NCBI RefSeq assembly: GCF_006151785.1
Contig: NZ_VDDD01000014.1
Span: 1-40,631, forward strand
From: Paracoccus marcusii
GTDB lineage: Bacteria; Pseudomonadota; Alphaproteobacteria; Rhodobacterales; Rhodobacteraceae
Reading direction: 5' to 3'
Length of the DNA stretch: 40,631 nucleotides
Shown here: piece after piece, positions 24,944-27,567 of the stretch
Position numbering within the stretch: the first letter of the stretch is position 1
How the letters are laid out: every line of letters begins with the position of its first letter
Notes under the pieces: generated by a model
Database searches by the model: none
What the model saw: the letters and a program-made list of their open reading frames with translations, nothing else
Told to the model about the DNA's origin: nothing
Position numbers and translations under genes: made by a program

Positions 24944-25651
24944 TCAGACGCCGCGCCGGTTGCCCCACAGCAGGACATGCAGCTGCGGCAGCAGACGGGG
25001 TCGGAACCAGCCGTCCGCCATCACCTTGTCGACCAGCCATAGCAGCCGGTCCGCGACATCCTGCGCCGCGACGGGCACGTCCGGGTCCACCTCCGGGTTC
25101 CCCGGCTGCAAAACCAGGTCCAGATCCGGATACCGCCCCGCCCAATCGCGCGCCCAGGCATAATCGGCATCGTCGAAGACGACGATCTTCAGCACCGTCC
25201 GCGTGCCCTGCGCCGCCGCCAGACAGGCCTCGAAGGCCGCCGGGTCGGGCGTCTCGCCGCTGGAGGGCGGCTTGGGGCTCAACACCAGCAGCGTCAGGTC
25301 CGCGAACCAGTCGCGCGCCACCGATCCCTGCGTCTCCAGCGCGAAGCCGTAGCCCTCGGCCCGGCCCGTCGCGATCAGCGGCCCAAAGTCCTGGATGGCC
25401 GGATTGCCGCCGGAAATGGATACCGTCAGCGGCCGCCCGCCCGACAGCGCGCGCACCTGCGCCCAGACCTCGGCGGTCTGCATCGCGGCCCAGCTATCGC
25501 GAAAGGCGCTGTCGACCGCATGCATCGAATCGCACCACGAACAGCGGTAATCGCACCCCCCTGCCCGGACAAAGACCGTGGGCTGTCCGATCAGGGCGCC
25601 CTCCCCCTGGATGGTGGGGCCAAAGATTTCCGCGATGCGCAGGGGTTTCAT
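24944..25651 (-). CDS. queE: 7-carboxy-7-deazaguanine synthase
   Basis: Radical-SAM enzyme converting 6-carboxytetrahydropterin to 7-carboxy-7-deazaguanine in queuosine (preQ0/preQ1) synthesis. The 235-residue protein has the cluster motif CDYRCSWC (Cys33, Cys37, Cys40) after the conserved [10 protein letters not shown], and [10 protein letters not shown] further on. Its ATG overlaps the queD stop by four bases (ATGA), so it is the third gene of a tightly coupled queC-queD-queE operon under the preQ1 riboswitch. It ends next to repeat copy B. Confidence 0.95.
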
Positions 25652-26001
25652 GGCCGGTACTCGGCCCAGGTCTTGGGCGTCTCGCTGACCTTGACGGCGC
25701 TGGTCTCGGGCCAGCGTGCCCGGCACCAGTCGAAGAAATGCCGCGCCAGGTTCTCGGCGGTCGAGGGCACGTCCAGCACTTCGTTCAGATGCCGGTGGTC
25801 GAACGTCCCGTCGACATAGGCCTTCAGCGCCGCCAGTTCGTGGTAATCGCGCACGAAGCCGTCGGCATTCAGATCCGGCGCCGCCAATTCGACCACGACG
25901 ATATAGTTGTGCCCGTGCAGCCGCGCGCATTGATGATCGGGCGCCAGATGGTCCAGGCGGTGCGACGCGCTGAAATGGAACTCCTTGCTGATGCGGAACA
26001 T
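25648..26001 (-). CDS. queD: 6-carboxytetrahydropterin synthase
   Basis: Converts dihydroneopterin triphosphate to 6-carboxy-5,6,7,8-tetrahydropterin, the step before QueE. The 117-residue protein of the PTPS fold has zinc ligands His14, His29 and His31 and the catalytic Cys25 within [10 protein letters not shown]. The start ATG at 26001 shares one base with the queC stop (TGATG). A longer in-frame version would overlap queC entirely and is rejected. Confidence 0.95.
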
Positions 26002-26708
26002 CACGCGCCCCCCGCGGCATGGGCGGCCACCGCCGCCTGCCAGAAATCGGCATCGTCGTAGTCGGTCGGATCGGCCACGCCCGCCAGGTGGAACGCCTCG
26101 CGCCGCTCCACGCAGGTGCCGCAGCGTCCGCAATGGCGCGCCCCGCCCTTGTAGCAGGACCAGGTCTGCGCAAAGGGCGTGCCCGCGGCAGCGCCCGCCG
26201 TTACGATGTCGGCCTTGGTGCGGTGAACGAAGGGCACGTCCAGCACGACATCGGCATACCCCTCCAGCGCCGCGCGCTGCATGGCGGCGAAGGCGTCCGT
26301 GAAACCGGGCCGGCAATCGGGATAGATGAAGTGATCGCCCCCGTGGACCGCGGCCGCCACCGCCGCATCGCCATTGGCGGCAGCGATGCCGAAGGCCACG
26401 GTCAGCATGATCGCGTTGCGGTTGGGAACCACCGTCACGCGCATCGTCTCTTCGGCGTAATGGCCGTCGGGCACGGCCAGATCGTCGGTCAGCGCCGATC
26501 CCGACAGCGCCGCGCCCAGTCCCGACAGGTCGACCAGGTGGAACGGCACGCCCAGCCGCAGGGCGCAGGCGCCGGCAAAATCCAGCTCCTTGCGATGGCG
26601 CTGGCCGTAATCAAAGCTGACGATGCGCGACAGGCGCCCCTGGGACGCAAGGACATGGGCAAGCGAGACGGAATCCAGCCCGCCCGAGCAGACAAGTGCA
26701 GTGTGCAT
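26001..26708 (-). CDS. queC: 7-cyano-7-deazaguanine synthase
   Basis: Forms preQ0 from 7-carboxy-7-deazaguanine with ATP and ammonia. The 235-residue protein has the PP-loop CSGGLDS at residues 7-13 and a C-terminal zinc cluster in [18 protein letters not shown] 26708 (MHTALVC) has AAGGG (26720-26716) seven bases upstream, and that ribosome-binding site is part of the preQ1 riboswitch. It is the first gene of the queC-queD-queE operon, 88 bp downstream of fnrL on the same strand but with its own predicted promoter. Confidence 0.96.
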
Positions 26709-26715
26709 GTTTGAA

Positions 26716-26751
26716 CCCTTGTTTTTGTGACCCGGGTAGGCTGCGACCGGG
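26716..26751 (-). promoter_or_regulatory. PreQ1 class I riboswitch (translational) controlling queC-queD-queE
   Basis: On the minus strand the 36-nt element has P1 CCCGG (26751-26747) paired with CCGGG (26735-26731), the loop TCGCAG followed by CCTA, the preQ1-pairing cytosine just before the P1 3' strand, and the A-rich tail ACAAAAACAAGGG. The loop and tail match the known Thermoanaerobacter tengcongensis aptamer almost base for base. The last bases, AAGGG, are the queC ribosome-binding site, so ligand binding should hide it in the pseudoknot. The neighbouring genes are exactly the preQ1 pathway. Confidence 0.93.
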
Positions 26752-26758
26752 AAGCTGC

Positions 26759-26787
26759 CGCTTAGCAGAGCGAGCACGCGATGAAAA
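26759..26787 (-). promoter_or_regulatory. Candidate promoter of the queCDE operon
   Basis: TTTTCA (26787-26782), 17 bp, TAAGCG (26764-26759). The predicted start, about 26752, coincides with the first base of the riboswitch P1 stem, so the leader would be the aptamer and little else. Confidence 0.5.
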
Positions 26788-26796
26788 GCGCCGCCC

Positions 26797-27567
26797 TCAG
26801 GCGGTCGCCCCGTCGTCGCCCGTCCCGCCCGATTCGGCGATCAGCCGGGCGTAATCGGTCAGGGTGACGCCACGCTTGCCCACGATCTCGATGATGCCGT
26901 CGCGGCGCAGGGCGGTCATCTGGCGGCTGACCGTCTCGATGGTCAGGCCCAGATAGGCGGCCATCGCCTCGCGCGTCAAAGGCAGCTCCAGCACGATGCG
27001 GCCCGCCGGGCGGCGCTTCTGCGAGGCCGCCTGCCGCCGCGCGATGATGGCGATGAACGAGGCGATCTTCTCGCGTGCCGTCTTGCGGCCCAGAAGCAGC
27101 ATCCATTCGCGCGCCGCGTCCAGCTCGTCCAGGGTCATCTCCAGCAGGCGATGCGCCAGATGCGGGATGCGCTGCATCAACTGGTCGAACGGCCCGCGCC
27201 GGAAACAGCACAGCACCAGCCCCGTCGCGGCGGTGGCGTTGTAGGCGGCCGTGTCGCGCCCCGGCCGGCCCAGGAAATCGCTGGGCAGCAGCAGGCCCAC
27301 CATCTGGGCGCGCCCGTCCTCCAGCGTCCGGGTCAGCGTCGCCACCCCGCTGACGACCGAGGCCACGAAATCCATCCGGTCGCCCTCCCAGACGATCGGC
27401 TGGCCGGCCTCGAAGCTGCGATAGAACTTCATCCGTTCCAGCAGGGCCAGCTCGTCGCCCTCGCATTGCGCACAGACGGCGCGATAGCGGATGGGGCAGT
27501 CGCCGCAGCGCGCACCGCCTTGCAGGGGGCTTGACGGTTGAACCTGGGTCGGAACGGGGGGGCGCAT
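26797..27567 (-). CDS. fnrL: FNR-family oxygen-sensing regulator (FnrL type)
   Basis: A 256-residue CRP/FNR regulator that binds DNA when oxygen is low. The N-terminal cysteines Cys21, Cys24 and Cys32 (CGDCPIRYRAVC), with Cys35 nearby, and a central Cys120/Cys121 provide ligands for an oxygen-labile [4Fe-4S] cluster. The helix-turn-helix includes IETVSRQM, with the Glu, Ser and Arg that read TTGAT half-sites. ATG 27567 (MRPPVPTQ) is chosen because a good promoter lies directly upstream; the longer frame to 27636 would include that promoter. There is no clear ribosome-binding site, fitting a leaderless mRNA. A perfect target site lies in front of the nearby universal stress gene. Confidence 0.94.
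   Translation of the reverse strand: MRPPVPTQVQPSSPLQGGARCGDCPIRYRAVCAQCEGDELALLERMKFYRSFEAGQPIVWEGDRMDFVASVVSGVATLTRTLEDGRAQMVGLLLPSDFLGRPGRDTAAYNATAATGLVLCCFRRGPFDQLMQRIPHLAHRLLEMTLDELDAAREWMLLLGRKTAREKIASFIAIIARRQAASQKRRPAGRIVLELPLTREAMAAYLGLTIETVSRQMTALRRDGIIEIVGKRGVTLTDYARLIAESGGTGDDGATA

Follow-up and report, generated by a model that had tools for sequence, protein, structure and literature searches.

A predicted preQ1 class I type II riboswitch over the queC ribosome-binding site in Paracoccus and related Alphaproteobacteria

Does the short leader of the queC-queD-queE operon in Paracoccus marcusii carry a riboswitch and, if so, of which type and over which genes? The window, the whole 40,631-nucleotide stretch of contig NZ_VDDD01000014.1 (assembly GCF_006151785.1) analysed here, holds the operon on its minus strand. 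queC (26001..26708; TIGR00364, 159.7 bits against a cut-off of 150.3) is followed by queD (25648..26001; TIGR03367, 91 bits, cut-off 89.25), whose start codon overlaps the queC stop, and by queE (24944..25651; TIGR03365, 338 bits, cut-off 206.1), whose start codon overlaps the queD stop. QueC, QueD and QueE each score above an NCBIfam cut-off, in agreement with the first-pass annotation of this DNA, which had placed a preQ1-I riboswitch ahead of genes of the cognate pathway. The gene upstream of queC is fnrL, a regulator gene; a terminator-like hairpin (CCGCCTGAGGGCGG then CGCTTTT; 26791-26804, minus strand) lies just ahead of the queC promoter region and, by coordinates, contains the fnrL stop codon. 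We conclude, with a probability of about 0.9, that the leader carries a translational preQ1 class I type II riboswitch, resembling that of Thermoanaerobacter tengcongensis (Tte) and lying over the ribosome-binding site.

Read directly, the 36-nt element spans positions 26751-26716 of the minus strand as CCCGG UCGCAGCCUAC CCGGG UCACAAAAACAAGGG. The P1 helix CCCGG/CCGGG that had been claimed is present: its 5′ strand (26747..26751) pairs with positions 26735-26731 of the 3′ strand (26731..26735), a pairing that covariation also supports. The strands enclose an 11-nt loop, UCGCAGCCUAC (26746-26736); the loop had been described as TCGCAG, and these bases are there but make up only the first 6 of the 11. 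This segment, UCGCAG (26741..26746; U6 C7 G8 followed by C9 A10 G11), is the same in 48/48 genus queC elements, which were located for this count by gene position and not by pattern, and it is seldom altered elsewhere (L127, L177, L178 and G669). Under Tte numbering, C9-A10-G11 presumably forms the 5′ strand of P2 in a Tte-like register. The loop continues with CCU (CCY across elements; 26738..26740), complementary to AGG of the Shine-Dalgarno sequence, and closes with AC (26736..26737) directly before the P1 3′ strand, where C26736 is the expected ligand-pairing base. The tail, UCACAAAAACAAGGG (26730-26716), holds the queC ribosome-binding site, as annotated at first pass: an A-rich L3, UCACAAAAAC (26721..26730), whose last base C is the counterpart of Tte C30, leads into the Shine-Dalgarno AAGGG (26716..26720), 7 nt ahead of the queC ATG at 26708.

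These parts place the element in type II. A 2024 review gives AC before the P1 3′ strand and an A-rich tail as the type II signature, and describes for Tte a C7-G11-C30 ceiling, a specificity C and partial burial of the Shine-Dalgarno (PMC11625349). The element has counterparts of the ceiling bases C7 and G11 and of the tail C. It combines a short P1 helix, AC directly before the P1 3′ strand (likewise in 48/48 genus queC elements), an A-rich L3 that runs into the predicted P2 and the expression platform, and linkage to queuosine genes, which extends to 95/95 strong genus matches. Type I has UU at the top of the P1 5′ strand, UC preceding the 3′ strand and CUA in the tail (PMC11625349, PMC8752633), in which places the element has UC, AC and CAA. 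Type III likewise has UU there, with a short pyrimidine-rich loop (PMC10622847, PMC11625349), in place of which the element has UC and an 11-nt mixed loop. UC in place of UU excludes both types.

Comparison across genomes argues for the preQ1-I identity and the Tte-like (type II) resemblance proposed at first pass, as well as for control of queC-queD-queE, and it points to queF as a further gene under the element. A QueC search of 125 genus genomes gave 52 matches, 49 of them orthologues; G054, G030 and G105, at 25-43% identity and two of them partial, were dropped. The element lies directly upstream of queC in 48 of these 49 genomes, 46 through one strict pattern and two with a shorter linker, and G098 (L049) is the sole one without it there. 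Alignment of queC upstream regions had been suggested as a check, and P1 and tail are retained in these 48 relatives, with far more variable sequence farther upstream of the element. The gaps that MAFFT introduced into alignment A1 fell at its end, and a covariance model, R1, was therefore built from the nine equal-length copies of alignment A2. Run against the 125 genomes, R1 yields 112 matches with E values no higher than 0.1. The 95 best (E up to 0.0015) comprise 48 before queC, 47 before queF and none elsewhere; the 17 weaker ones (E from 0.009), two of them also near queF, are excluded from the 95. Presence in 48/49 queC genomes, combined with 95/95 strong matches before queC or queF, excludes chance.

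The queF copy of the window's own genome (G000:C218:5583-5614) precedes a protein that matches QueF-II at 144 bits (cut-off 86.9). Those copies ahead of queF that were read base by base have CCC for CCU, a shorter linker and carry a tail such as AACAGGAG. Among the 125 genus genomes, queC is found in 49 and a queF match in 87. The 87 queF matches, of which one is partial and contains stops, fall into three groups. An element of their own precedes 49, weak elements counted; another 17 stand no more than 2.5 kb downstream of queC on its strand and, given this closeness and orientation, probably share the queC element; for the last 21 there is neither an element of their own nor a queC in the 2.5 kb upstream. 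In 19 genomes queF carries an element and queC is absent, which suggests preQ0 salvage. At L083, L106, L113, L132 and L139, the copies ahead of queF stand at a longer gap, which in some of them contains an apparent queC start remnant or a hairpin.

The P1 helix varies in a paired manner. In an alignment of 53 distinct rows, which are related and were fitted to P1, 96.9% of cells are paired and the covariation score is 0.137 against a shuffled mean of 0.029; none of 500 shuffles is as high, and every slid version scores lower. A set of 202 distinct stretches, each the element with a little flanking sequence, shows C-G at pair 2 in 187 and G-C in 15; at pair 3 it shows C-G in 194, A-U in six, G-C in one and U-A in one. 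Pair 1 is standard in 172/202 and unpaired in 30/202, and pairs 4 and 5 are fixed by the search pattern in this set. For the 36-nt element in isolation the predicted fold is P1; the minimum-energy fold of the 51-nt leader is without it.

A strict consensus promoter scan of the window found none. A looser search, weighing -35/-10 pairs over 100 nt, gives as the window's best pair a -35-like TTTTCA (26782..26787) and a -10-like TAAGCG (26759..26764), both on the minus strand and 17 bp apart, ending 7 nt before P1; the corresponding distance at the same genome's queF copy is 6 nt. A promoter with 17-bp spacing and a start at the aptamer's first base had been predicted before, and the looser search arrives at the same place, a position conserved in relatives. 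Of 42 distinct genus queC regions, 30 have their best pair 5-9 nt before P1, against a mean of 2.8 and a maximum of 9 in 200 base shuffles. The same holds for 16 of 22 regions with a queF-type tail (shuffles: mean 1.4, maximum 6) and for 93 of 149 other loci (shuffles: mean 9.9, maximum 18), and T at -36/-35 counts among the more highly conserved columns upstream of the element in the genus set. Given this fixed distance the transcript should begin with P1, at a predicted start of about 26751-26752, P1's first base.

Upstream of P1, a GC-rich hairpin abuts or nearly abuts the helix in 18/149 relatives, under a rule that matches 3.3% of shuffles. The hairpin has 6-8 bp and no gap to P1 at L100, L103, L111, L141, L149, L206, L220, L235, L279 and L290, where it is possibly an extra, coaxially stacked helix. 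At five of these loci (L100, L111, L149, L220 and L279), 23-28 nt separate the best promoter-like pair from P1 downstream of it; at the other five (L103, L141, L206, L235 and L290) that pair is elsewhere or weak.

At the Rfam gathering score the window has no match. At a relaxed score, RF00522 aligns to the element end to end (model positions 1-45) and scores 17.5 bits where its cut-off asks for 39, and this is its sole match in the genome at E≤10 (E 0.88). The covariance-model check with the preQ1-I family thus came out under threshold, a result that the first-pass annotation had named as grounds for dropping the element. The same loose search matches in 14/14 control genomes, above the cut-off in one, so the score is no evidence either way. 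None of 17 further loci (11 alphaproteobacterial, six Firmicutes) reaches the gathering score; one of the six Firmicutes records, L222, is probably a chance pattern match and was rejected as a true element. Among eight loci scored in relaxed mode, six lie at 22.9 to 35.3 bits, and L189 and L218 give no PreQ1 match; the best of the four alphaproteobacterial relatives scored is Roseovarius albus (L193) at 35.3 bits. Since four Firmicutes elements that precede queuosine-precursor transporters score just 22.9-31.2 bits, the RF00522 threshold is uninformative here: the standard Rfam cut-off misses such elements.

The predicted element extends beyond the genus. In a family sample of 394 genomes, queC is present in 43, and R1 matches 41 genomes with E values no higher than 1.4e-6. 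The match lies directly before queC in 37 of the 43; in four genomes it lies elsewhere, before queF or before an apparent queC remnant, and six of the 43 queC genes have no strong match directly upstream. The candidate element class is, by these counts, common where queC is present. At G393 (L304), only the tail and Shine-Dalgarno are left upstream of queC, beside what by eye appears to be a transposase end, and the locus reads like a natural loss of the aptamer. Model R2, applied to 292 genomes sampled from the order, has matches in 70 with E no higher than 0.02 (one at 0.019), and 70/70 belong to the window's own family. A class sample of 385 genomes gives nine matches, two of them from that family. 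In G887, G789, G976 and G932, all of other families, the element precedes queC-like ORF starts at E below 1e-5, and G994 has a weak element before an ORF beginning like queC. In G955 (L306), a weak element precedes an ORF of 10 codons that overlaps, by its stop codon, the start of a QueD-like reading frame (Pfam PTPS 70.8 bits, below the NCBIfam QueD cut-off); the match in G960 is probably due to chance and was set aside.

A pattern scan of named genomes, with loop core and tail fixed, returned at least 119 stretches. Among the matches listed are many Rhodobacteraceae, together with Rhizobium, Pseudovibrio, Roseibium, Nitratireductor, Tianweitania, Kiloniella and a Bartonella MAG, and the four non-Rhodobacteraceae downstream ORFs tested (L189, L194, L201 and L218) encode QueC. 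The Firmicutes among the matches listed (Moorella, Caldicoprobacter, Syntrophomonadaceae and another Firmicutes MAG) have a 10-nt loop, UCGCAGNNAC; of six Firmicutes downstream ORFs tested, five encode QueT (Pfam) and that of Moorella a queuosine-precursor transporter (Vut_1, TIGR00697). A 2013 survey that included 15 Rhodobacterales genomes describes preQ1 switches as mostly limited to Firmicutes (PMC3766115), and the 2024 review reports type II in Pseudomonadota with fewer sequences (PMC11625349). Titles and abstract openings in the open literature yielded no report of the element in Paracoccus or Rhodobacterales, and the open literature yielded nothing combining preQ1, riboswitch and Paracoccus. 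A 2014 paper on preQ1 riboswitch diversity is said to contain sequence lists. Part of the alphaproteobacterial branch may already stand in these lists. The branch, broad in its members (Rhodobacteraceae, Rhizobium, Kiloniella, Pseudovibrio and others), would enlarge a riboswitch class that is among the smallest.

The element's resemblance to the family and its place ahead of queF lead us to infer that the ligand is preQ1. When plentiful, preQ1 would pair with C26736 between P1 and P2, the tail would dock, and P2 would form between the loop and bases at the Shine-Dalgarno. Hiding AAGGG would most likely keep ribosomes off queC and lower its translation, with queD and queE following by coupling through the overlapping stop and start codons, and queF would be repressed by its own copy of the element. 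In the absence of preQ1, the tail would be free and the genes translated. With separate copies at queC and queF, the product preQ1 would shut down both the synthesis of preQ0 and its reduction, so the model predicts feedback on both steps.

An aptamer that senses preQ0 instead is suggested by the product of QueC, which is preQ0, and by the selectivity of the Tte aptamer, which prefers preQ1 over preQ0 only 17-fold (PMC10622847). We consider this unlikely: queF, whose product consumes preQ0 and makes preQ1, is preceded by 47 of the 95 strong genus copies, and this placement favours preQ1 as the ligand. More improbable still is that CCGG-N11-CCGG is no RNA switch and acts in the DNA, as an operator where a repressor or activator would bind at the start of transcription. 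On this side, CCGG forms a palindrome by itself, the element overlaps the predicted start, paired changes such as those in P1 would be expected of a DNA dyad too, and the regulator gene fnrL adjoins the element in the window. Conservation is nevertheless one-sided, with UCGCAG..AC, the A-rich tail and the Shine-Dalgarno in a single orientation beside the start codon. P1 departs in places from the palindrome, to GCGG/CCGC and CAGG/CCUG, the same loop core and tail stand ahead of Firmicutes transporter genes, and the sequence is unlike an Fnr box.

A closer competitor keeps the switch and changes its knot. Two loop-tail registers offer complementary bases for P2, with little variation between elements, and in Alphaproteobacteria P2 could arise by pairing of CCY (C12 C13 Y14) to the Shine-Dalgarno itself, similarly to type III, or the two registers could alternate; Tte instead uses C9-A10-G11. 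We give this less than even odds. The 3-nt complement between CCY and the Shine-Dalgarno is kept in 174 of 175 elements with a queC-type tail; 153 of the 174 are the common CCU/AGG, so the informative elements are the others, in which CCC occurs with GGG (17/18) and CCA with UGG (2/2; L107 and G595). G669 has lost C9 and retained CCU/AGG. Between UCGCAG and AC, alphaproteobacterial loops hold CCU, CCC or rarely CCA, and Firmicutes-type loops hold two variable bases and no CCY, with the 3-nt complement in 0/9 of them. Against this, the third CCY pair is found in 0/21 elements with a queF-type tail, where the first two bases pair only, and UCGCAG with the tail C, the bases of the Tte-type knot, is as well conserved as CCY. 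GGGAT is common to 16/17 CCC/GGG elements, which may therefore be one inherited form; the association of C14 with GGG (17/18 vs 92/153, Fisher p 0.003) ignores kinship; and the search pattern fixed ARGG in part of the set. The CCY register would compete with Tte-type pairing for the same G. We take the Tte-type knot to be the probable bound state and CCY pairing to be a possible addition.

On the reading as a Tte-like preQ1 switch, we tentatively suggest an alphaproteobacterial preQ1-I subtype, a proposal that is more doubtful than the class assignment. It would be defined by scores below the Rfam cut-off in every copy scored here, CCY as a direct anti-Shine-Dalgarno beside the Tte-type knot, an aptamer that is transcribed first, and a queF copy of its own outside the queC operon. 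A 36-nt aptamer at the predicted +1, with natural variants, would offer a system for studying how a knot hides a ribosome-binding site.

Compared with Rfam RF00522 PreQ1, an operational model and not a structural definition, the element aligns yet stays below the cut-off. With Tte it shares a 5-pair P1, the loop bases UCGCAG, AC, and an A-rich tail that runs into the Shine-Dalgarno. It differs from Tte in its 11-nt loop (10 nt there), in the conserved CCY of L2, in the placement of P1 at the predicted +1, and in the putative control of queCDE and queF. The Tte switch controls a putative preQ1 transporter (PMC3905878). The Firmicutes elements with the UCGCAGNNAC loop share the loop core, AC and, as the search pattern required, an A-rich tail that closes with AACAAGG, whereas their 10-nt loop has no CCY and they lie ahead of transporter genes. 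Relative to the type III switch of E. coli yhhQ, as described in PMC10622847 and PMC11625349, the element lacks UU atop the P1 5′ strand, has a longer loop and precedes other genes, but shares AC at the specificity base and, if the CCY register holds, would likewise bury the Shine-Dalgarno with a pyrimidine segment.
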